Positions 5,629 through 23,727 of a stretch of DNA of 23,727 nt are shown here, piece by piece. Source of the stretch: a virus; the IMG/VR virus record IMGVR_UViG_3300042465_003830, positions 1 to 23,727 of that record; one strand, given 5' to 3'. Position 1 is the first letter of the stretch. Each line of letters begins with the position of its first letter. Made by a program: the position numbers and the translations under genes. The notes under the pieces were generated by a model. The model was not told where the DNA came from, searched no databases, and saw only the letters and a list, made by a program, of their open reading frames with translations.

Positions 5629-5814
5629 ATGAGCACAAAAGAACAATTAGATATATTATTAAATAAATGGGTAAGTAGAAAACTATCTGTTTTTATAGTG
5701 GCATGCGCAGGATTATTTTCAGGATATTTAACCTCATCTGATTGGGTTATTATTGCAACTGCATATATAGGGATTCAGGGATTTACGGACATTGTTAATA
5801 AATTAAAAAGATAA
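5629..5814 (+). CDS. Holin candidate, 61 aa, two membrane segments
   Basis: A short N-terminal helix with charged residues is followed by two hydrophobic segments, about residues 19-36 and 38-55, and a basic tail ending KLKR. Size, two-segment topology and position directly before a second small membrane protein and a DUF5675 protein match phage holins, which open the inner membrane at the end of infection. The stop codon overlaps the next start (TAATG), so the genes are translationally coupled. Topology is read from hydrophobicity by eye; holin function is inferred. Confidence 0.65.
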   Translation: MSTKEQLDILLNKWVSRKLSVFIVACAGLFSGYLTSSDWVIIATAYIGIQGFTDIVNKLKR

Positions 5815-6011
5815 TGGATCAGGGGTCAATACGGTTGTACATATTAAATGCTTTAACTATTTACTTAAGCTTTACAAATTTGGAAACTACATTAAAAATA
5901 CTATTGCTATTAATATCAATAGCGTATACTAGTATGAAAATATATGATTGGGTAATTTTAAAAATAAAGAACGACAATGGTAATAACAGTAAAGAGACTT
6001 TACAAGACTGA
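5814..6011 (+). CDS. Second small membrane protein of the lysis cassette (holin or antiholin candidate)
   Basis: This 65-residue protein has hydrophobic stretches at about residues 7-21 and 26-46 and a charged, Asn-rich C-terminal tail. It lies between the first holin candidate and the DUF5675 gene, whose start lies inside this gene with a 35-base overlap. Paired small membrane proteins in lysis cassettes often act as holin and antiholin or as a pinholin pair. Which of the two forms the pore cannot be told from sequence. Confidence 0.6.
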   Translation: MDQGSIRLYILNALTIYLSFTNLETTLKILLLLISIAYTSMKIYDWVILKIKNDNGNNSKETLQD

Positions 6012-6363
6012 TAATTCTACAATAGGGGAGTTATTAATAGATGGTATATTTGAATGTTTTACTTTAGAGGATAAAGAAAGGCTCATGAAGATTAAAGGGG
6101 AAACAGCGATACCTAAAGGAACATATAAAGTAATTATAAATGAATCCAATAGGTTTAAAAGATTACTGCCTTTATTGATCAATGTGCCAAACTTCGAAGG
6201 AGTAAGGATACATAGCGGTAATTCTAATCACGATACCGAGGGGTGTATATTAGTTGGCCAAACAAGGAATAAAAACTATATAGGACAATCTAGAAAAGCT
6301 TTTGATAAGTTATTTAAAAAAATGCAAGCGGCTAAGAACATAACATTAACTATTATATCATGA
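5977..6363 (+). CDS. DUF5675 family protein, probable wall-acting lysis enzyme
   Basis: The 128-residue protein starts MVITVKRLYKTDNSTIGELL and has the family blocks CFTLED (27-32), IPKGTYKV (45-52) and VRIHSGNSNHDTEGCILVG (76-94). His79, Asp86 and Cys90 form an HxGN...DTxGC signature that resembles the active-site layout of L,D-transpeptidase-type enzymes, which act on peptidoglycan. No other obvious endolysin is visible in the cassette, so this is the best candidate for the wall-degrading or wall-modifying step. The start at 5977 is favoured because the conserved block begins there, despite the 35-base overlap. The stop codon TGA overlaps the next ATG (ATGA). Catalytic activity is inferred, not established. 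Confidence 0.8.
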   Translation: MVITVKRLYKTDNSTIGELLIDGIFECFTLEDKERLMKIKGETAIPKGTYKVIINESNRFKRLLPLLINVPNFEGVRIHSGNSNHDTEGCILVGQTRNKNYIGQSRKAFDKLFKKMQAAKNITLTIIS

Positions 6364-6875
6364 TGAAGAAGGTTATTATATTGGCATCGTTATTATTATT
6401 AGTATCATGTGGCGCGCGCAAGGTAGACGTGACCAAGATTGATATTAAGAAAGACAGTATTGCAGAAACAAAAGTTACAGTTGCGATTATAGAAAACAAA
6501 ATAAAAACAGATTCTACAAACATAGTTACAAATATGGATAGTAGTGAAATTACTATCACCCCTATTGATTCAAGTAAAACGATTATAGTTGATGGTAAAA
6601 GTTATAAAAACGTTGTTTTAAAGATTAAAAAGATTAAAGCTAATAGTTTATACGTAAATAACAAAAAGGAGTCAGATACTAAGCGTATGGACTCCGTAGC
6701 AAGTACTAAGATAGTTAAAAAAGAAGTGATAGATGGAAAAACAAAATTCATTGACAAGAAAGAAAGTATTGTTGGAAATATTGTTGTATATTCGCTATTA
6801 TTATTATTTATTATCATTGCTATTATTATTGGTAGGAAAGCGTATAAGACGTATATCGCGTGGTTAAAATTATAA
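6360..6875 (+). CDS. Candidate unimolecular spanin (lipoprotein with C-terminal membrane anchor)
   Basis: The 171-residue protein starts with a lipoprotein signal, MMKKVIILASLLLLVSC, whose lipobox LVSC puts the lipidated cysteine at residue 17. A Thr/Ser/Ile/Val-rich, probably beta-rich periplasmic part follows. A single hydrophobic segment at about residues 141-158 (VVYSLLLLFIIIAIIIG) is followed by a basic tail. A protein lipid-anchored in the outer membrane and held in the inner membrane by a C-terminal segment has the topology of u-spanins such as T1 gp11, which fuse the two membranes as the last lysis step. It is coupled to the DUF5675 gene by ATGA. It closes the lysis cassette, before a 48-base gap. 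Confidence 0.7.
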   Translation: MMKKVIILASLLLLVSCGARKVDVTKIDIKKDSIAETKVTVAIIENKIKTDSTNIVTNMDSSEITITPIDSSKTIIVDGKSYKNVVLKIKKIKANSLYVNNKKESDTKRMDSVASTKIVKKEVIDGKTKFIDKKESIVGNIVVYSLLLLFIIIAIIIGRKAYKTYIAWLKL

Positions 6876-6923
6876 ATTACGCGTAATAATAAAAATATTA
6901 AATTAAATCAAATCAAATAAAAT
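6876..6923 (+). promoter_or_regulatory. Intergenic region before groEL with palindrome and promoter-like motif, copy 2
   Basis: ATTACGCGTAAT at 6876-6887 is a perfect 12-base palindrome directly after the spanin stop codon. Its right half starts CGTAATAATA at 6882-6891, the second copy of the candidate promoter motif. The remaining bases are A/T only apart from two C, with repeated AAATTAAATC-like units leading to the groEL start codon. The break in the otherwise overlapping gene chain suggests that the chaperonin operon can be transcribed on its own. Promoter or operator function is inferred. Confidence 0.4.
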
Positions 6924-8468
6924 ATGTCAGACGCTATAGTCAAAAATTTAAGCTTTGGAAAAGAGGCTAGTGATAAAGTATTTGCTGGAATAGAAAAGTT
7001 AACTAAGGCGGTTAGTTCTACTTTAGGAGCAAGTGGTAAATGTGTTCTTTTAGAAGACGCCACTGGAAGACCAGTTATAACAAAAGACGGTGTTACCGTT
7101 GCTGATTCAATTATATTGTTAGATCCCGTAGAAAATATGGGTGCTACATTATTAAAAGAAGCAGCAAGAAAAACAGTTAGAGAGGCCGGAGATGGAACAA
7201 CTACCGCTACTGTATTAGCACACGCTATTTTAACTGAGGCATATAAACTAGAAACAGTTAACTCTAGAGAACTTAAAGATGGTATAAACAAAGCTGTTGA
7301 AAAAGTTATAGAATATTTAGAAAAAAATTCTATAAAAGTAGACGATGCAATGCTAGATCAAATAGCAACTATATCTACTAATAATGATCCTATATTGGGT
7401 AAGTTAGTAGGAGACGCTTTCAGGTCAGTTGGAAATACCGGAATTGTAATGATGGAAACATCCTCAGATCCAGAATGTAGTCTACAAGTCGTTGAGGGAG
7501 TACAATGTAATATGGGGTTAACAAATTCTCACTTTATTACTAATCATAAAAATAAAACAGCAGAGTTAGATGCTCCATTAGTTTTGCTAATCGAATCGCC
7601 TGTTGATAGTATACGTCAAGTACAATCTGTATTAGAGTATGTTATAAAAAATAATAAATCATTATTAATTATTGGGGATCTAGAGCAAGGTGTATTATCT
7701 GCCCTAGCAATGAACAAGTCTAAAGGCAATATAAAGATTAATGTTATTAATGCGCCTACATTTGGTATTAATAGAAAGGAAATTTTAGATGACCTTGCTT
7801 TACTAACCGGGGCTACTGTTATTAACGAAGATCTTGGAGATGATTTAGATTTAATACAACCAGAACACTTAGGTATTTGTGTTAAAAGTATTACTAGTCA
7901 TGAAGAAACGGTTCTTCACGTTGGCGAAACATCAGAAGAGATATTAGAAATAATAGATGATATTAAAAAGTCATTACTTGAAAATAATCCAAACTATGTG
8001 GTTATAAAACTAGAGAAAAGATTAGCTCGTTTAACGGCTAAGATTGCTATAGTTAAAGTAGGGGCAAATTCAGAGATCGAATTAAAAGAAAAAGCGGATA
8101 GAATTGAAGATGCGATTTGTGCAACTAAAGCCGCTATTAAAGAAGGGATTGTTGCGGGAGGAGGAATTGCTTTATTAAATGCTTCTCATAATATAGATAC
8201 TTTTTCTATTGGTGAAGAGATATTAATGGATGCTATTAAAGCTCCTTTTCATACTATATTAGATAATGCCGGTATTGAGCATGCTCCATTAGATGCAGTA
8301 TCAAAGGTTGGGTATGGGCTTAATGTTATAACTGGCGAAACTGTTGATATGATAAAAGCCGGTATAATTGATCCTCTATTAGTTACTAAAAGCGCATTAA
8401 GAAATGCGGCGTCAGTTGCTGTTACAATATTATCGACGGACTGTGTAATTAATAACTTGAGAGCATAA
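6924..8468 (+). CDS. groEL: Phage-encoded GroEL-type chaperonin (group I)
   Basis: GroEL rings enclose unfolded proteins and release them in an ATP-driven cycle. Visible family motifs are KDGVTV (54-59), the ATP-binding loop GDGTTTATV (89-97), an apical domain starting GVQCNMGLTNSHFIT (192-206), APTFGINRKEIL in the apical domain (278-288), RIEDAICATKAA with the catalytic aspartate D396 (E. coli D398), and VAGGG (410-414). The length is 514 against about 548 in E. coli. The protein ends right after VTILSTDCVI..., so the usual Gly-Met-rich tail is missing. The usually conserved LxGGVAVI(K/R)VG reads LTAKIAIVKVG. The sequence is clearly diverged from host-type GroEL but all visible ATP residues are kept. 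It is coupled to groES by TAATG. Clients are probably phage virion proteins (inference). Confidence 0.95.
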   Translation: MSDAIVKNLSFGKEASDKVFAGIEKLTKAVSSTLGASGKCVLLEDATGRPVITKDGVTVADSIILLDPVENMGATLLKEAARKTVREAGDGTTTATVLAHAILTEAYKLETVNSRELKDGINKAVEKVIEYLEKNSIKVDDAMLDQIATISTNNDPILGKLVGDAFRSVGNTGIVMMETSSDPECSLQVVEGVQCNMGLTNSHFITNHKNKTAELDAPLVLLIESPVDSIRQVQSVLEYVIKNNKSLLIIGDLEQGVLSALAMNKSKGNIKINVINAPTFGINRKEILDDLALLTGATVINEDLGDDLDLIQPEHLGICVKSITSHEETVLHVGETSEEILEIIDDIKKSLLENNPNYVVIKLEKRLARLTAKIAIVKVGANSEIELKEKADRIEDAICATKAAIKEGIVAGGGIALLNASHNIDTFSIGEEILMDAIKAPFHTILDNAGIEHAPLDAVSKVGYGLNVITGETVDMIKAGIIDPLLVTKSALRNAASVAVTILSTDCVINNLRA

Positions 8469-8728
8469 TGAAAGCTATAGGTAAAAATTTAATTATAGAG
8501 AAAGTAAAAGAAGGTACAACCTCTACAAAAGGAGGATTGTTATTAGCTGAAAACCAACGAGAAGATATTAGATATATAGAGGCCACTGTGCTTTCTATAG
8601 GGGATGAAGTTGTTGGAGTTAAGAAAGATGATAGAATATTTTATGACCGTCATGCGGGACATAAGATAGAAATAGATAAAGATATATACTTTGTTATAAA
8701 GTTAATGGACGTTGTAGTTGTACTATAA
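8468..8728 (+). CDS. groES: Phage-encoded GroES-type co-chaperonin
   Basis: GroES caps the GroEL ring. The 86-residue protein has the family plan: an N-terminal strand IGKNLIIEKV; a mobile loop at about 14-32 with GGLLLAENQ, where LLL (24-26) stands for the hydrophobic tripeptide that binds GroEL; the barrel strand EATVLSIGDE; VKKDDRIFYDRHAG; and the C-terminal strand YFVIKLMDVVVVL. It is slightly shorter than the usual 95-100 residues, mainly in the roof-loop region between about 44 and 52. It overlaps groEL and the following gene by one base each, so the three should be made together. The order groEL-groES is the reverse of the normal bacterial operon. Confidence 0.92.
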   Translation: MKAIGKNLIIEKVKEGTTSTKGGLLLAENQREDIRYIEATVLSIGDEVVGVKKDDRIFYDRHAGHKIEIDKDIYFVIKLMDVVVVL

Positions 8729-9180
8729 TGAGACTTGAAGCAAGTGATATTAAAGAAATAGGATTACTTAAACATTATAGGATAATAAGAAGATGGGCAT
8801 GCAGGAATAACAATTTAACCGATGCCGATTTAGAACTTCTTATATATTTTGATTGTATGGAATTCTTTAGTAAACAAGATTATAAGATCGGTACTTATGC
8901 CTATAGTTGGGACAATAAACGCTGGAACAATTTATTAAAAGAGGGTTGGATAGTGGTATGGAGAAATCATAACCCTACAACTCAAAAGTATAATATATAT
9001 AAAGTTTCATTCAAGTGTAAACAACTTATAAGTAGAATGTATCGTATAATGTTGGGGAAAGAGGATATACCTACAAGTCATAGAAATTCTATAATGAGTG
9101 GTAAGACATATATGGATACAGTTATGATAACTGCTATAGAAAATACAAATAAAGATAAAACACGAAATAATGAGTTTTAA
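8728..9180 (+). CDS. Probable winged-helix protein, third gene of the chaperonin operon
   Basis: The 150-residue protein begins with a helical region (DIKEIGLLKHYRIIRRWA), then NNLTDADLELLIYFDCMEFF, which looks like helices of a winged-helix fold. YAYSWDNKRWNNLLKEGWI would be the recognition helix and first wing strand, and VVWRNHNPTTQKYNIYKVS a beta hairpin wing. The arrangement resembles MarR-type transcription factors. The C-terminal half is basic (SFKCKQLISRMYRIM). I recall similar proteins in flavobacterial and marine phages without a known role. Coupled to groES by TAATG, it could control late genes or the chaperonin operon. DNA binding is an inference from the fold pattern. Confidence 0.65.
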   Translation: MRLEASDIKEIGLLKHYRIIRRWACRNNNLTDADLELLIYFDCMEFFSKQDYKIGTYAYSWDNKRWNNLLKEGWIVVWRNHNPTTQKYNIYKVSFKCKQLISRMYRIMLGKEDIPTSHRNSIMSGKTYMDTVMITAIENTNKDKTRNNEF

Positions 9181-9946
9181 CCAAAAGAATACTCCTTTAC
9201 GGCAATACGCTGGAGTTGCATTAGATTTAAAGGCCATACAGGCAAGTACTACAGCTAATCCTGCCGTACAATATGGCCTATCTAAAGGTTTAACTGGTGC
9301 ACAAGCTTTTAAAGATGCCTCGAGTGCTCCTAAGGATTACGCTTCCTTGGTACAAAGACAAAACGCATTTTTAGAAACGCAGAACGCAGCTAGGATCGCT
9401 GGGGATAGTACCTTAGCCGCTAAATGGGGTAATCCTTCAGTGGTAAATGGAACTAATGTAGTTCCAGCAAATCCATCAAGTCAAAACGCAACCGCTAGGA
9501 GTGGTATAGGTAGTTTTGCACAGCCTACTGCTAGTAACACTATAAATAATAATCCACAATCTACAGTACAGAGTAATACCTCTGGATGGAGAAAAACGGA
9601 TTCACATAATATTAATACAAACCAAGGATCAATGTTTAACAATCCTGCAGCATCTGCAAGTACTATGTTTTCACCATTCCGACAATTAAAAAAAGAACAA
9701 ATGGAATATAACAAGATTAGTCCTAAAGCGTTTAGTAGCGCAGGAACAATAGAAAAAATGATGGGTAAGGCAGTGCCAAATTCGCCATTTATGCAAATGA
9801 TAGATCCTTTAACCGGTATTGCGCTTGACCCAACTATGAGTCAAGATCCTAATGCACCGGCTCCTATAAATACAGGTGTACCGATTGCTCCGCCATTAGG
9901 AGTGCAAACGCCAATAACGCCTAATTATAATTTAAACAACCAATAA
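9170..9946 (+). CDS. SP/TP-motif protein, 258 aa, low-complexity, probable minor virion protein
   Basis: It begins MSFNQKNTPLRQYAG, a T-P-L-R-Q version of the SPLxQ motif of the first two genes. The middle (about residues 80-165) is rich in Ala, Asn, Gln, Ser and Thr and is probably disordered. A short conserved-looking block with charged residues follows (FSPFRQLKKEQMEYNKISP near residue 166), and then a Pro-rich tail. No enzymatic motif is visible. It overlaps the winged-helix gene by 11 bases and is followed after two bases by the next gene. Its composition and neighbours suggest a structural or injected protein; this is weak evidence. Confidence 0.7.
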   Translation: MSFNQKNTPLRQYAGVALDLKAIQASTTANPAVQYGLSKGLTGAQAFKDASSAPKDYASLVQRQNAFLETQNAARIAGDSTLAAKWGNPSVVNGTNVVPANPSSQNATARSGIGSFAQPTASNTINNNPQSTVQSNTSGWRKTDSHNINTNQGSMFNNPAASASTMFSPFRQLKKEQMEYNKISPKAFSSAGTIEKMMGKAVPNSPFMQMIDPLTGIALDPTMSQDPNAPAPINTGVPIAPPLGVQTPITPNYNLNNQ

Positions 9947-10171: not shown

Positions 10172-10690
10172 ATGTCTTTAGATATTGTTAAAAAAAATAG
10201 TAACTCGCCATTCCAACTTCAAAGGAGTATGGTGCCTCAAGGGGGCGAAGGCGGCGCTTATGAGTCCGGAGGATATACCGGACAATCAGCTTATAGTGAT
10301 GGAGGGGTTGCGGCGTCTATCGCTGGCATGGGTCAAATGCTTGGGGCTGCGATAAGTAGCAGAACAGCAGCTGATGACAATGCTTCAGATGCTAAAAAGA
10401 AAGAGAGATTAGACAAAAGAGCAGTTAGATTAACTGAAAAAATGACTTCTTCTAAAGACCCAAACCAAGCTGCTAGAATAGAAAATAGGTTAGGCAATAT
10501 AGGCAAAAAACAACAAGAAACAAGCGCAAGAATTAAAGCCTATAATGAAATTGAAAAGCCTACTTTAAAATCAGGCATTGGAGATAAAGCGCCTCTAGTT
10601 ACAGTTAATTCTAAAGTAACTACAGAGCCGCCAGTAGCAAGTGTAGACTTTACTAGCACTGTTAAGAAATTATTTAATCGTCCACAATAA
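10172..10690 (+). CDS. SP-motif protein, 172 aa, with glycine-rich and helical parts
   Basis: The N-terminus has KKNSNSPFQLQRSM, placing an S-P-F element at residues 12-14. A Gly-rich stretch follows (GGEGGAYESGGYTGQ), then a hydrophobic small-residue helix (AASIAGMGQMLGAAISS, about 49-65), then a long charged helix (about 75-130) with Lys/Arg and Glu suited to a coiled coil. It is not recognised as a named family. The hydrophobic helix beside a coiled coil would suit an internal or ejected virion protein, but this is speculation from composition. Confidence 0.65.
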   Translation: MSLDIVKKNSNSPFQLQRSMVPQGGEGGAYESGGYTGQSAYSDGGVAASIAGMGQMLGAAISSRTAADDNASDAKKKERLDKRAVRLTEKMTSSKDPNQAARIENRLGNIGKKQQETSARIKAYNEIEKPTLKSGIGDKAPLVTVNSKVTTEPPVASVDFTSTVKKLFNRPQ

Positions 10691-15845: not shown

Positions 15846-16072
15846 TGGATAATATTATTAGAAAGATAAGTATAGGCGCTGATTATAAAAATGAGGCGAT
15901 GCATTATTCTGTGGGACAGTCCGTTTATGGGGGTCACGAAATAACGTGTATAATATATGGTGATAAAGATTCTTCATATAACATATACATAAAAAAAGGG
16001 GATGAGGTAATGCCTTGGAAGAAATTTAATTCTAATATGGCTATCTCTGTAGAATATGATTTAGAATACTAA
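15845..16072 (+). CDS. Small hypothetical protein, 75 aa
   Basis: The protein contains ISIGADYKNEAMHYSVGQSV, GGHEITCIIYGDKDSSYNIY and a final ISVEYDLEY. It looks like a compact beta-strand domain with one His/Cys-containing strand. It is not assigned to any named family. It is coupled on both sides by one-base TAATG overlaps, between the coiled-coil gene and the double GroES-like gene, so it probably belongs to the same assembly unit. Confidence 0.6.
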   Translation: MDNIIRKISIGADYKNEAMHYSVGQSVYGGHEITCIIYGDKDSSYNIYIKKGDEVMPWKKFNSNMAISVEYDLEY

Positions 16073-16680
16073 TGACAAGTGTATTTAATTTTATCGTTAA
16101 GCCAGTAGGCGAAAGATACGATAATGAAATTAAGGTAGAAGGTGGAAACCTAGTGCTAAATACAAAAATAGAAAGTTTTAAATCTGTGAATAACTTAGCG
16201 GAGGTTGTTGCAATCCCGCTAGCTTATTCAACAAATATAAAAGTAGGAGATTTTGTAGTAATACACCATAATGTTTTTAGAAGGTTTTATGATATGAAAG
16301 GTAAACAAAAAAATAGTAGGGCATTCTTTATGGATAATCTATATTTTTGCGATATAGACCAAATTTATCTATATAAAACGGATAAGGAGTGGATGTCATT
16401 TGGTGACAGATGCTTTATTAAACCATTAAGGAACATAGACCATTTAAAGCTAGATAAAGAGCAAAGACTTATTGGTATACTAAAGTACGGTAATAACTCC
16501 TTAAAGGCGCTTAAAATCAACGAGGGAGATCTTGTTGGTTATACCCCAAATGGAGAGTTTGAGTTTGTTGTTGAAGGACAAAGACTTTATTGTATGAAAT
16601 CTAATGATATTGTAATTAAATATGAATATAAAGGAAACGAAGCAGAGTATAATCCTGGCTGGGCACAAAGCGGTACTTGA
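16072..16680 (+). CDS. Protein with two tandem GroES-like domains
   Basis: Domain 1 (about 5-103) follows the GroES strand order: NFIVKPVGERY, a loop with EGGNLVLN (23-30) in the place of the GroEL-binding mobile loop, LAEVVAIP, IKVGDFVVIHHNVFRRF and a last strand DIDQIYLYK. Domain 2 (about 112-186) repeats it: RCFIKPL, RLIGILKYG, INEGDLVGYTPNGEFEFVVEG and RLYCMKSNDIVIKYEY. It lacks an obvious mobile loop. Fused GroES domains are known in chloroplast Cpn20, which works with a chaperonin. Similar phage proteins are sometimes labelled co-chaperonin. This could be a second cap for the phage or host GroEL, or the fold may be reused for a virion role. It lies two genes upstream of the terminase and overlaps the next gene by 59 bases. 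Confidence 0.7.
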   Translation: MTSVFNFIVKPVGERYDNEIKVEGGNLVLNTKIESFKSVNNLAEVVAIPLAYSTNIKVGDFVVIHHNVFRRFYDMKGKQKNSRAFFMDNLYFCDIDQIYLYKTDKEWMSFGDRCFIKPLRNIDHLKLDKEQRLIGILKYGNNSLKALKINEGDLVGYTPNGEFEFVVEGQRLYCMKSNDIVIKYEYKGNEAEYNPGWAQSGT

Positions 16681-16897
16681 GTTAATTAAAGTGGCTGAAG
16701 AAGCTATTCTAAATAACGGAGACGATGATTTGTCAGCCGATAAATTAAAGAACGCTGCAGCTACTAAAAAACTAGCAATCTTCGATGCTTTTGAGATTCT
16801 AACCAGGATCGAAGAAGAAGAAAAATTATTAGTTGAAGGGGATAAAGAAGCAGATACAAAAGTGTTTAAAGGTTTTGCAGAAGGGAGATCTAAGTAA
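16622..16897 (+). CDS. Small helical acidic protein before the terminase (small terminase candidate)
   Basis: The 91-residue protein is predicted by eye to be all helical: IILAGHKAVLELIKVAEEAI, then DDDLSADKLKNAAATKKLAI, then FDAFEILTRIEEEEKLL. No other methionine is available downstream in frame, so the unusual 59-base overlap with the preceding gene is probably real. Position directly in front of the large terminase, with a one-base TAATG overlap, is where small terminase subunits commonly lie. No helix-turn-helix is obvious, so this remains a positional guess. Confidence 0.6.
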   Translation: MNIKETKQSIILAGHKAVLELIKVAEEAILNNGDDDLSADKLKNAAATKKLAIFDAFEILTRIEEEEKLLVEGDKEADTKVFKGFAEGRSK

Positions 16898-19119
16898 TGT
16901 ACGAGCAAACACTATATAAAGTAACCTCGGGCTATGTAAAGGCCAGTGTTATAAAACAAAATAATCGCCTAAATAAATGGAAATATGGATACAATAAGGA
17001 TCATGATATGGTTGTTATTAGTAAGACTGGAAAGATTGGCGAAATACTTGAAATCCAGAATTTAAAAATAGCCTTACCGTTAGCGGAAAACGTATACTCT
17101 AGATCTAAAAATAAAGAGGAACAGTACTGGAAGCAAATGGAATTCCCAAAAGAGTTAAGTAAAATTAAAAGCACTTTTGATTGGAACAAACAAACGGATT
17201 CTTTTAAGGATCGCTGGTATGACTACATAGATAATGAATTCAAATATAGAGAAGAAGGTTTATTCTTTTATAATAACGGTAAACCAACTTATATAACAGG
17301 TACACATTATATGTACTTACAATGGAGCAAGATAGATATTGGAGCCCCTGATTATAGGGAGTCAAATAGATTGTTCTTTATATTTTGGGAAGCTTGTAAG
17401 GCAGACAATAGAGCATACGGAATGTGTTATTTAAAAAATAGACGTTCTGGATTTTCATTTATGTCATCTGCTGAATTAGTTAACTTAGCAACTATATCAA
17501 GTGATTCAAGGTTTGGTATCCTATCTAAAAAAGGAGCAGATGCTAAAACAATGTTTACTGATAAGGTTGTGCCGATCTCAATTAATTATCCTTTCTTTTT
17601 TAAACCTATCCAAGATGGTATGGATAGACCTAAAACAGAACTTGCATATAGGATTCCAGCATCTAAACTAACAAGACGAAAGTTAGATTCTAATGAAAGG
17701 TTAGAAGAACTTGAAGGACTTGATACAACGATCGACTGGAAAAACACTGGAGATAACTCCTATGATGGTGAAAAGTTAAAGCTTTTAGTACATGATGAAA
17801 GTGGTAAATGGGAAAGACCTGATAATATATTAAATAACTGGCGTGTTACAAAAACAACACTAAGATTAGGTAGTAAGATTATTGGTAAGTGTATGATGGG
17901 TTCAACCTCAAATGCTTTAGACAAAGGAGGGGAAAACTTTAAAAAACTTTATTACAACTCAGATGTTACGAAAAGAAACCGCAACGGACAGACTAGCTCA
18001 GGATTATATAGTTTGTTTATACCTATGGAGTGGTCCTACGAGGGATTCATTGATACTTATGGCGTACCTGTATTCGATACTCCAGAAAAACCAATCAAAG
18101 GAGTTGATGGAAACGAAATAGATTATGGAGTTATTGAGCATTGGCAAAATGAAGTAGATGGTTTAAAGTCTGATCAAGATGGCTTAAATGAATACTATAG
18201 ACAATTTCCAAGAACAGAACAACATGCGTTTAGAGATGAAGCAAAGCAATCTTTGTTTAATCTTACTAAAATATACGAGCAAATAGATTATAATGAAGAT
18301 ATACGGAACACAAGTATTTTAACTCGTGGTAGTTTTCAATGGGCTAATGGAATACAAGATACAAAAGTGATTTTTTATCCTAATAAGGATGGTAGATTCC
18401 TAGTTTCATGGGTTCCGCCTAGTCAACTTCAAAATAATATTATAATAAAAAACGGCGTTAAATACCCTGGTAATGAACATTGCGGCGCTTTTGGATGTGA
18501 TCCTTATGATATATCTGGAACGGTAGATGGCAAAGGTTCTAATGGTTCTTTAAGTGGATTAACTAAGTTCTCAATGGAAGACGTACCGCCAAATAGTTTC
18601 TTTCTAGAATATATTGCAAGACCACAAACAGCGGAGATATTCTTTGAAGAAGTTTTAATGGCTTGCATATTTTACGGAATGCCAATACTAGCAGAGAATA
18701 ATAAGCCTAGATTATTGTTTCATTTTAAAAGGAGAGGATATAGAGGCTACTCTATGAATAGGCCTGATAAGATATGGAATAAATTATCTATAACTGAAAA
18801 AGACATTGGTGGAATACCAAACTCAAGTGAGGATATTAAACAAGCACATGCTGCCGCAATAGAGTCTTATATAGAACATCACGTTGGTATAACAGAACAA
18901 GGGTTTGGAGATATGTATTTTAATAATACTTTAAATGACTGGGCTAGATTTAATATCAATGATAGAACAAAGCACGATGCTTCTATTAGCTCTGGGTTGG
19001 CTATTATGGCTTGCAATAAACATAGATATGTACCAACAGTTCCTTTAGTTAGACAAGTTCATGATTTAGGGTTTAAAAAATACGATAATACAGGTTCTTC
19101 ATCAAAAATATACAATTAA
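16897..19119 (+). CDS. terL: Terminase large subunit (DNA packaging ATPase-nuclease)
   Basis: This motor pumps DNA into the prohead and cuts it. The 740-residue length and motifs resemble crAss-like and marine flavobacterial phage terminases. The nucleotide-binding loop reads KNRRSGFSF (180-188); it takes the Walker A position but lacks the usual GKT/S ending. Walker B is LKLLVHDE (294-301) with D300 and E301. A coupling motif, MMGSTSNA (333-340), and QFPRTEQHAFRDE (436-448) follow. The C-terminal RNase H-type nuclease shows FGCDPYD (532-538), with D535 as a metal ligand, and a later aspartate in KHDASISSG (692-700). The gene is coupled by TAATG to both neighbours: the candidate small subunit before it and the portal after it. 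Confidence 0.93.
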   Translation: MYEQTLYKVTSGYVKASVIKQNNRLNKWKYGYNKDHDMVVISKTGKIGEILEIQNLKIALPLAENVYSRSKNKEEQYWKQMEFPKELSKIKSTFDWNKQTDSFKDRWYDYIDNEFKYREEGLFFYNNGKPTYITGTHYMYLQWSKIDIGAPDYRESNRLFFIFWEACKADNRAYGMCYLKNRRSGFSFMSSAELVNLATISSDSRFGILSKKGADAKTMFTDKVVPISINYPFFFKPIQDGMDRPKTELAYRIPASKLTRRKLDSNERLEELEGLDTTIDWKNTGDNSYDGEKLKLLVHDESGKWERPDNILNNWRVTKTTLRLGSKIIGKCMMGSTSNALDKGGENFKKLYYNSDVTKRNRNGQTSSGLYSLFIPMEWSYEGFIDTYGVPVFDTPEKPIKGVDGNEIDYGVIEHWQNEVDGLKSDQDGLNEYYRQFPRTEQHAFRDEAKQSLFNLTKIYEQIDYNEDIRNTSILTRGSFQWANGIQDTKVIFYPNKDGRFLVSWVPPSQLQNNIIIKNGVKYPGNEHCGAFGCDPYDISGTVDGKGSNGSLSGLTKFSMEDVPPNSFFLEYIARPQTAEIFFEEVLMACIFYGMPILAENNKPRLLFHFKRRGYRGYSMNRPDKIWNKLSITEKDIGGIPNSSEDIKQAHAAAIESYIEHHVGITEQGFGDMYFNNTLNDWARFNINDRTKHDASISSGLAIMACNKHRYVPTVPLVRQVHDLGFKKYDNTGSSSKIYN

Positions 19120-21509
19120 TGAATATATACACAAATACCAATAGCGCTTTCCCCAGTCAGGTTGTAAGCGATGCAGATAAAGCATCCGAAGAATATGGCT
19201 TACAGGTTTCTAGAGCTATAGAACAAGAATGGTTTGATCAAGGGAGAACTACTCAGAATAGATATGTATCTAATTGGAATAACTTTCATCAATTAAGATT
19301 ATACGCAAGAGGCGAACAGTCTGTACAAAAATATAAAGATGAACTAGCAACCAACGGAGATTTATCTTATCTTAATATAGATTGGAAACCGGTTCCTGTT
19401 ATATCTAAATTTGTAGATATTGTTGTTAATGGCATGTCCCAAAAAACTTATGATATAAAAGCTTATGCTCAAGATCAAGAGTCTTTAAAGAGTAGAACGG
19501 ATTATGCACAGTCTATATTAAGAGACATGTATTCACAAGATTTACTGACTAAAGCCACTGGTGTTACTGGACAGGATTTTTCAGCTTCTCCATTGGCAGC
19601 AGATGCTTTGCCTGAAAATCAAGAAGAATTAGATTTGCACATGCAATTATCTTACAAACAATCTATTGAGATAGCGGAAGAAGAAGCAATCAATAATGTA
19701 TTAGCCGCTAACAAGTGGGATTTAACTAGAAGGCGCTTAAACTATGATTTAACAGTTTTAGGAATTGCTTGTGTAAAAACAAACTTTAATGTATCTGAAG
19801 GAATAAAAACAGAATATGTTGATCCTGCTTACTTGGTATATTCGTACACAGAAGACCCAAACTTTGATGATATATATTATGTTGGAGAAGTTAAAGCGGT
19901 TACTATTCCGGAATTAAAAAAAGAATTTCCACATATAACTGACGAGGAGTTATATAAAATACAACAAATGCCAGGCAATAGACAATATATTACTGGCTGG
20001 GGTAACTATGATGAAAATACTGTTCAGGTATTATATTTTGAATATAAGACTTATATGAATCAAGTATTTAAAATAAAATATGGTGATAATGGATTAGAAA
20101 AAGCTATTGAAAAAACAGATGATTTTAATCCTCCGCCAAATGATAATTTTGAAAGAATATCTAGAACTATAGAAGTACTTTATACAGGGGCTAAAATCCT
20201 TGGGACTACAACTATGCTGGAATGGAAGATGTCAGAGAATATGTCTAGACCTTATGCTGACACTACCAAAGTAGAAATGAATTACGTTATATCTGCTCCT
20301 AGAATGTATAAAGGTAGAATTGATTCTACAGTTAATAAAATTACTGGGTTTGCGGACATGATCCAATTAACACATTTAAAACTGCAACAAGTAATGTCTA
20401 AGATAATTCCTGATGGGGTATTTTTAGATATTGATGGATTATCAGAAATTGATTTAGGTAATGGTACAAATTATAATCCGGCGGAAGCATTAAATATGTA
20501 CTTTCAAACTGGTAGTATAATTGGTAGATCGTTAACACAAGATGGTGGGCAGAATTTAGCTAGAGTACCTATTCAAGAATTAACTAGTTCTTCTGGGCAA
20601 GCAAAAATAGCTGCTCTTATACAGACTTATCAATATTATTTACAAATGATAAGAGATGTTACTGGGCTTAATGAAGCTCGCGATGGGAGTGCTCCAGAAA
20701 GAGATACTTTAGTTGGACTGCAAAAGATGGCCGCTAACGCGTCAAATACTGCTACAAAACATATATTACAGTCCAGTTTGTTTTTGACTCTTAGAACGTG
20801 CGAAAACATATCCCTTAGGATTGCGGACTGCTTAGATTACCCTTTAACAGCTAAAGTTTTAGAGCAAAGTATAACAACTTATAATACGGCCACTTTAAGG
20901 GAAATTAAAAACTTAAACCTTCATGACTTTGGTATCTACTTAGAGTTAGAACCAGATGAAGAAGAAAAAGCAATGTTAGAACAAAACATTCAAGTTGCTT
21001 TACAAAGTGGAGGTATAGATCTTGACGATGCTATTGATGTTAGGCAGATTAGAAACTTAAAATTAGCAAATCAAATGCTAAAATTAAGAAAGAATAAAAA
21101 ACAAAAAGCCGCTCAAGAAGCACAAATGCAGAATATCCAAGCACAAGCACAGGCAAACCAGCAAACCGCTCAGCAAGCTGCTTTATACGAAGTTCAAAAG
21201 CAACAAGCTTTAACACAGGAGACAATAAATATAGAAAGAGCAAAGTCTCAATTTGAAATGGAAAGATTGCAAGTAGAAATGCAACTTAAACAACAAATTA
21301 TGGAACAGCAGTTTCAATATGATCTTCAATTAGCTCAAGCTGGTATACAGACAAAACAACAATTACAAACAGAAGCAGAAGATCGAAAAGACAAAAGAAC
21401 AAAAATACAAGCCACTCAACAATCAGAATTAATAGACCAAAGAAAAAACAACGCAATGCCGAAAGATTTTGAAGCGCCTGAAGATATGTTTGGATCCTTT
21501 GGTATGTAA
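19119..21509 (+). CDS. Portal protein
   Basis: The portal is the twelve-fold ring at one head vertex through which DNA passes. The 796-residue protein follows terL directly. It shows portal-type features known from crAss-like phages: an N-terminal helical part with NFHQLRLYARGEQSVQKYK, then IDWKPVPVISKFVDIVVNGM near residues 87-106. A long mixed core with YVDPAYLVYSYTEDPNFDD follows, and then helices with TGLNEARDGSAPERDTLVG in the region that forms the crown or stem. From about residue 655 to 770 the chain is an unusually Gln- and Ala-rich helix, probably a long coiled-coil barrel reaching into the head. Function is inferred from length, position and motifs. Confidence 0.88.
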   Translation: MNIYTNTNSAFPSQVVSDADKASEEYGLQVSRAIEQEWFDQGRTTQNRYVSNWNNFHQLRLYARGEQSVQKYKDELATNGDLSYLNIDWKPVPVISKFVDIVVNGMSQKTYDIKAYAQDQESLKSRTDYAQSILRDMYSQDLLTKATGVTGQDFSASPLAADALPENQEELDLHMQLSYKQSIEIAEEEAINNVLAANKWDLTRRRLNYDLTVLGIACVKTNFNVSEGIKTEYVDPAYLVYSYTEDPNFDDIYYVGEVKAVTIPELKKEFPHITDEELYKIQQMPGNRQYITGWGNYDENTVQVLYFEYKTYMNQVFKIKYGDNGLEKAIEKTDDFNPPPNDNFERISRTIEVLYTGAKILGTTTMLEWKMSENMSRPYADTTKVEMNYVISAPRMYKGRIDSTVNKITGFADMIQLTHLKLQQVMSKIIPDGVFLDIDGLSEIDLGNGTNYNPAEALNMYFQTGSIIGRSLTQDGGQNLARVPIQELTSSSGQAKIAALIQTYQYYLQMIRDVTGLNEARDGSAPERDTLVGLQKMAANASNTATKHILQSSLFLTLRTCENISLRIADCLDYPLTAKVLEQSITTYNTATLREIKNLNLHDFGIYLELEPDEEEKAMLEQNIQVALQSGGIDLDDAIDVRQIRNLKLANQMLKLRKNKKQKAAQEAQMQNIQAQAQANQQTAQQAALYEVQKQQALTQETINIERAKSQFEMERLQVEMQLKQQIMEQQFQYDLQLAQAGIQTKQQLQTEAEDRKDKRTKIQATQQSELIDQRKNNAMPKDFEAPEDMFGSFGM

Positions 21510-22746: not shown

Positions 22747-23727
22747 ATGTCAAATGTGACTCCACAATTTGGGACAATTAAACCGTCTCAAAAACAACAA
22801 GCGTTAGAAACAAATTACTTAAACTTCGCAAACGGAAGTGGTAATGATTTTGCTCAACAATATTTACCTGAAATCTACGAAGCTGAAGTAGAACGTTACG
22901 GAAACAGAACTCTTTCTGGATTCTTGCGTATGGTTGGGGCTGAAATGCCAATGTCTTCTGATCAAGTTATTTGGTCTGAACAAAACAGATTACACATTGC
23001 TTACAAAGATGTAACTTGTGCTACTGCTACTACTTTAACTTTCACTACTGGTGGATCAGGCGCTAACTACGTTGCTAACGTTGTTTCTCCGGGACAAACT
23101 TTAGTAGTTATGAACCCTGTTACAGGTGCTGAACTTAAAGTTCTTGTTACTGCTTCCGTTACAGTATCTACTACTGCTACAATCACAGTTGCTACTTATA
23201 CTCAAGCTAGTTTAACTTCAGGGGCTGTAAATCTTACTGGAGCAACAACTCTTAAGATCTTTGTTTACGGTTCTGAATTCAAAAAAGGAACTACTGATGC
23301 GTCTATTAACGCTGTAACACCTTCATTCACTCAATACAATAACTCTCCTATCATTATCAAAGAAAGATACCAAATCTCTGGATCTGATACTGCACAAATT
23401 GGATGGGTTGAAGTTGCTACTGAAGATGGAACTGGTGGATTCTTATGGTATTTAAAAGCTGAATCTGAAACAAGATTGCGTTTTGAAGATTATTTAGAAA
23501 TGTCTGTGATTGAAGGTGAATTAGCCGCTGCTTCTTCTGGAGTTGCTAATATTGCTGCTACTGGAGACGGAGCTCTTTATAAAGGAACTCAAGGTCTTTT
23601 TGCTGCTATCAAAGAAAGAGGTAATATCGTAAACAACTTTACTGCTGCAAGTGGTTTAAGTGATTTTGATTCAATCTTGAAAAACTTAGATACTCAAGGA
23701 GCTATTGAAGAAAACATGTTCTTCTTG
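22747..23727 (+). CDS. Major capsid protein, 5' part (cut by window end)
   Basis: The frame is open from ATG at 22747 to the last base, giving 327 codons without a stop. It begins MSNVTPQFGTIKPSQKQQ and continues with QQYLPEIYEAEVERYGNRTL near residue 38, SSDQVIWSEQNRLHIAY near 71, IIIKERYQISGSD near 201, ETRLRFEDYLEMS and KGTQGLFAAIKERGN. The helix-plus-NRL pattern and the position after portal and scaffold fit an HK97-fold capsid protein of crAss-like type, though the fold itself is not readable by eye. Residues about 95-185 are Thr/Ala/Val-rich beta sequence and may form an inserted surface domain. Codons here strongly prefer AAC, TTC, ATC, GCT and ACT, suggesting very high expression. Confidence 0.88.
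   Translation, partial: MSNVTPQFGTIKPSQKQQALETNYLNFANGSGNDFAQQYLPEIYEAEVERYGNRTLSGFLRMVGAEMPMSSDQVIWSEQNRLHIAYKDVTCATATTLTFTTGGSGANYVANVVSPGQTLVVMNPVTGAELKVLVTASVTVSTTATITVATYTQASLTSGAVNLTGATTLKIFVYGSEFKKGTTDASINAVTPSFTQYNNSPIIIKERYQISGSDTAQIGWVEVATEDGTGGFLWYLKAESETRLRFEDYLEMSVIEGELAAASSGVANIAATGDGALYKGTQGLFAAIKERGNIVNNFTAASGLSDFDSILKNLDTQGAIEENMFFL

Follow-up and report, generated by a model that had tools for sequence, protein, structure and literature searches.

The window analysed here (23,727 nucleotides; the whole stretch from position 1 to 23,727 of IMG/VR record IMGVR_UViG_3300042465_003830) comes from an uncultured virus and probably has a group I chaperonin system of its own, in which a coupled GroEL, a dedicated GroES and a MarR-like gene, together with a tandem co-chaperonin encoded elsewhere in the window, would serve virion proteins. 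This reading was built on gene order, residue conservation, phylogeny and predicted folds. From the nearest cellular GroELs and from isolates on Flavobacterium, Cellulophaga and Maribacter, we infer that the host belongs to a Bacteroidota-type group of bacteria.

Organisation of the chaperonin locus

Three open reading frames had been placed at 6924-9180 by the initial annotation, with one-base overlaps between them, and both statements were confirmed. All three lie on the + strand, and Pfam and PHROGs matches identified intact groEL and groES. The first gene, groEL (6924-8468), encodes a virus-specific group I chaperonin of 514 aa and 54.8 kDa (PF00118, 6e-56; phrog_5725, 1e-133), the second, groES (8468-8728), a single-domain protein of 86 aa and 9.7 kDa (PF00166, 1.5e-12) with a GGLLL mobile loop and a short roof segment, and the third (8728-9180; phrog_17028) a MarR-like winged-helix protein of 150 aa. 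The groEL/groES and groES/winged-helix junctions both read TAATG, and the 3' end of the winged-helix gene overlaps the next open reading frame (start 9170) by 11 bases. This coupling is widespread: in a set of 130 distinct groEL genes from viruses, groES starts between −20 and +7 nt from the groEL stop in 129, and groES and the winged-helix gene share 1 or 4 nt at 125 of 128 loci. Judged from pN/pS, which is well below 1 for groEL (about 0.09-0.18), groES, the winged-helix gene and the tandem GroES gene described below, purifying selection acts on all four genes.

The third gene had been described as a winged helix, and this is supported at the level of fold only. Sequence-profile comparison returned no match and sequence search no useful hit. 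The AlphaFold2 model (pLDDT 84) was compared with the PDB using Foldseek; among the 50 matches listed, nearly all were MarR-family or related winged-helix regulators, with MarR, MexR and TcaR at the top (probability mostly 0.9-1.0, best E 6.7e-3), and the predicted fold is of the MarR type.

The module had also been placed between lysis and structural genes, which is roughly right. Upstream, positions 5629-6875 encode two small membrane proteins (one with a weak holin match, 0.0081), a DUF5675 protein and a lipoprotein whose C-terminal part includes a membrane segment, probably a lysis cassette. Downstream on the + strand are the terminase large subunit (16897-19119; phrog_6681, 9e-168), used here for context and as a lineage marker, the portal protein (19119-21509; phrog_6547, 3.6e-143) and a major capsid protein candidate (22747-23727; phrog_13704, head and packaging, 2e-49), which is cut by the window end and is a possible client. 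Short SP(L/F)(R/K/Q)Q- or PLRQ-like segments were seen near the N-termini of the products of 621-1379, 1330-1824, 9170-9946 and 10172-10690 and may represent a shared signal for the targeting or cleavage of virion proteins.

The claim that the operon has its own leader is plausible, in that the 48 nt of AT-rich sequence before groEL (6876-6923, + strand) are conserved among close relatives even though the preceding gene differs, which makes them a candidate promoter or ribosome-binding region. A promoter consensus was not found there: the leader was scanned for sigma-70, Bacteroidota-type TTTG/TANNTTTG and shared GTAAT motifs, and none scored above chance. Segments containing GTAAT also stand 5' of the genes at 621, 11653 and 15585. 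Rfam and tRNA scans gave no matches.

A tandem GroES-like protein upstream of the terminase

A further GroES-like gene was missed in the initial annotation, lying outside the three-gene module and just upstream of the terminase (16072-16680, + strand). Its product, of 202 aa and 23.4 kDa (phrog_13932, 4e-23), was modelled with AlphaFold2 (pLDDT 86, pTM 0.79) as a two-barrel protein of the Cpn20 type. The best Foldseek matches, along the entire protein, were to chloroplast Cpn20 and Cpn23, followed by single GroES chains, and the alignment with Cpn20 covered 208 columns at a TM score of 0.55. By profile, the C-terminal barrel aligned with cellular GroES at 94% probability. The N-terminal barrel, weak by sequence, is backed by the fold and by a phrog_3188 match on residues 14-66; profile-profile comparison of this barrel with cellular GroES gave no support. 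Two GroES-like barrels in one chain are predicted, with good sequence support for the C-terminal and weak support for the N-terminal one. Pfam Cpn10 matched weakly in 49 of 63 relatives, and relatives reach the Cpn10 gathering score. All 183 loci with groEL and terL (not deduplicated) also hold both the tandem and the single GroES.

It is quite possible that the tandem protein is a packaging or virion-assembly protein with a GroES-like fold and not a lid. It stands directly before the terminase in 58 of 58 TerL-anchored loci, its N-terminal barrel is divergent, the mobile loop of its second barrel is reduced, and it is kept in the Baltivirus phages phi13:2 and phi18:3 (Pachyviridae; L402 and L404), which have single and tandem GroES like the window virus but in whose complete genomes no GroEL was found. 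On the other side stand the best match of its fold, which is to Cpn20, and the Cpn10 scores of its relatives. In phi13:2 and phi18:3 the tandem protein could serve the host GroEL; with no GroEL found in these genomes, the lids could only use that of the host. In phi18:3, moreover, mass spectrometry was the basis for calling the portal structural, whereas the tandem protein was annotated by similarity only.

A virus-adapted GroEL and its GroES

The GroEL match to PF00118 spans residues 26-510, a full-length Cpn60 profile match, and the protein passes two NCBIfam GroEL subfamily cut-offs, the TIGR02348 equivalog cut-off not being reached. For residue comparison, 130 distinct viral GroELs were set against 69 cellular GroELs picked as nearest cellular relatives. 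The ATP residues had been reported as retained, and they are: the window GroEL keeps G32, D52, GDGTT with D87, D398, G415 and D495 (E. coli numbering), and the ATP/Mg site (D52, D87, D398, D495 and GDGTT) is intact in all 130 viral copies. The missing Gly-Met tail and the changed LxGGVAVI block were likewise verified, the C-terminal GGM tail being absent from the window GroEL and from every viral copy (0/130, against 69/69 cellular) and E. coli KLAGGVAVI (371-379) reading RLTAKIAIV in the window.

The viral proteins differ further at positions that are invariant or nearly so in the 69 cellular sequences (Y199, S201, Y203, L234, V263, V264, R58, D83, R197 and G374/G375). Together with the GGM tail, S201, Y203, R197, D83, G374 and G375 are invariant in 69 of 69 and changed in nearly all viral copies. 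Among the 130 viral GroELs, S201 is replaced by N in 127, Y203 by H, N or S in 130, L234 by Q in 130, V263 by A in 129 and V264 by M in 128, and Y199 is replaced by L, I or M; these six positions are substrate- and GroES-binding sites in E. coli GroEL. Also altered are R58 (to D), D83 (to R or K) and R197 (to K or M), which are inter-domain or allosteric contacts in E. coli GroEL, so the cycling of the viral protein may differ from that of its E. coli counterpart. In the viral GroEL alignment, inter-ring residues were too variable for a single or double ring to be predicted. At the level of sequence, the lid- and substrate-binding (apical) face is altered and the ATP pocket is intact.

The single-domain GroES scored 47.8 bits against PF00166 (gathering score 21.1), matched cellular GroES by profile comparison and carries the mobile loop TKGGLLLAEN; all 137 distinct relatives are 86-88 aa long. 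The loop is about 3 residues longer than in E. coli and the roof segment 9 residues shorter, though the difference from Bacteroidota GroES is only about 4 residues. The likeness to the roofless gp31 is limited, host Bacteroidota GroES being already short-roofed; since the short roof is partly common to the host protein, it is not clear evidence of a larger cage. The mobile-loop tripeptide is III in phi13:2, which has no GroEL, as in host GroES, and LLL, ILL, LEI, LYL or MTF in GroEL-bearing phages, a pattern that, in a small sample, fits private pairing.

That the GroEL is a GroES-independent holdase with the coupled GroES as an accessory appears improbable. The chaperonin encoded by Pseudomonas phage EL needs no encapsulation for its function and has no interaction with the GroES of E. 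coli (PMC7185714), and the altered apical and allosteric positions would suit such a mode of action. The EL protein is, however, a distant relative in sequence, and almost all genomes of the group studied here have groES coupled to groEL, with groES maintained by purifying selection.

Phylogeny bears on origin. A maximum-likelihood tree placed the window GroEL in a clade of 17 rows, all viral (100/100), that lay outside the cellular clade (100/97); the GroELs of Elemovirus, Panino, MW202828 and phi38:1 were long-branched and their exact places are unsure. Identity of the window GroEL to cellular GroELs is at most about 43%, the nearest (about 40-43%) being mostly from Bacteroidota. A recent host origin was rejected on the tree and the residue differences. 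There is only a slim chance that the genes are recently captured host genes that raise general GroE capacity as an auxiliary host-type chaperone with no virus specialisation: the GroELs of a Vibrio phage and of Bacteroides phage SJC03 do nest among cellular GroELs, but the window protein, with its low cellular identity and virus-only clade, also departs from its 69 nearest cellular relatives where these are invariant. An assembly artefact joining host groE genes to a phage contig, conceivable for a metagenomic viral fragment, can be set aside, as the same arrangement recurs in scores of independent contigs (130 distinct loci) and in cultured phages, and the module genes have nearly the same GC content as the window (groEL 0.339 vs 0.344). 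A recent host clade or a contig junction, either of which had been named as grounds for rejecting the initial annotation, was thus not what the data gave. The suggestion of a specialised chaperonin is supported in part: the virus-only clade and the altered face speak for a virus-adapted pair, and the phage-protein clients are putative.

The initial annotation had further held that adjacent groEL and groES are uncommon in phages, which was not borne out. Scanning of viral contigs recovered at least 599 stretches that code for proteins related to the window GroEL, the best 80 at 71-92% identity, and GroEL was found in 276 records of annotated phages. In terminase-anchored contigs with enough upstream sequence (n = 12), groEL lay within the flank in 10 and further out in an eleventh. 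Both genes are carried by Elemovirus (which makes up 68 of the records whose terminase is related), MW202828 (in the same order), phi38:1, Maribacter phage Panino (both chaperonins reported in PMC11590407) and Immutovirus, the last with a layout other than that of the window, and GroEL has been described in marine Bacteroidetes phages whose genomes group with phi38:1 (PMC5332604). The groEL-groES pair is already well known in Bacteroidota phages of a large and common group and is not a novelty. Metagenome-assembled contigs with bacterial or archaeal names (L313-L322, labels including Aliivibrio, Chloroflexi, Euryarchaeota and Desulfobacteraceae; GroEL 56-75% identical) all carry the phage groEL-groES-winged-helix triad and are probably viral sequence misbinned with cells.

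Proposed mechanism and comparison with known systems

In the proposed private chaperonin system, GroEL, GroES and the MarR-like protein would be made from one coupled transcript and the tandem co-chaperonin from the packaging cassette. GroEL would assemble into rings, bind ATP and trap abundant late virion proteins. The best candidate client would be the major capsid protein, at about 52 kDa; relatives longer than 400 aa have a median mass of 52.5 kDa. A capsid protein of about 52.5 kDa is near the usual size limit of the GroE cage. T4 gp23 provides a parallel for a capsid protein as client (PMC6318259). The cage would be closed by the 86-aa GroES through its GGLLL mobile loop, and the tandem protein may form a second lid part, either alone or mixed with the single GroES. 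A possible role of the MarR-like protein is transcriptional control of the module or of late genes, and with the system as a whole the virus would no longer depend on host GroE or compete for it. A more specific version, suggested by the chloroplast Cpn20/Cpn10 parallel (PMC5780408), has three tandem chains and one single chain forming a seven-domain ring (3 × 2 + 1) that is convergent with chloroplasts, caps the virus's own and/or the host GroEL and is tuned to capsid folding; we regard it as rather unlikely.

The window terminase is 64% identical to that of MW202828, 44% to that of Elemovirus and 37% to that of phi38:1. In Elemovirus (Flavobacterium phages vB_FspP_elemo, for example NC_062741 and NC_055853) groEL is followed by groES with a one-base overlap (seen on inspection of the genome), the tandem co-chaperonin stands directly before the terminase and a winged-helix homologue is present, all as in the window; in contrast to the window, GroEL is 37% identical, groEL and groES stand alone on the strand opposite to their neighbours, and the winged-helix homologue lies outside the triad. 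MW202828 (podovirus ctfjg026, Manatee Spring) shares groEL then groES 5' of the terminase and portal genes, as well as the tandem co-chaperonin, but its GroEL and GroES are strongly diverged and the phage search gave no winged-helix match. Callevirus phi38:1 and Panino also have GroEL, GroES and the tandem co-chaperonin; phi38:1 differs in having groES before groEL with one gene between, and Panino in a small open reading frame between groEL and groES. Mass spectrometry has revealed peptides of phi38:1 GroEL both in infected cells and in free-virion samples (PMC13288928), which supports expression in this relative. No chaperonin or co-chaperonin was found in Gundel_1, and the graded series of isolates (Gundel_1 with none, phi13:2 with two lids, Elemovirus and phi38:1 with lids and GroEL) could be used to study the benefit that a virus draws from having a chaperonin.

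T4 gp31 (PMC6318259) resembles the window GroES, to a limited extent, as a phage co-chaperonin with a short roof and a longer mobile loop, but uses the host GroEL, whereas the window virus has a phage GroEL. No paper describing a phage tandem co-chaperonin was found in the open-access literature. A parallel is the chloroplast, in which Cpn20, with two head-to-tail GroES domains, occurs with the single-domain Cpn10 (PMC5780408), as the two kinds of GroES do in the window virus; the phage tandem protein differs in being very divergent and in its reduced second mobile loop. As a lid it would show the Cpn20 design outside plastids, and would bear on the way in which lids with two domains per chain match a ring of seven.
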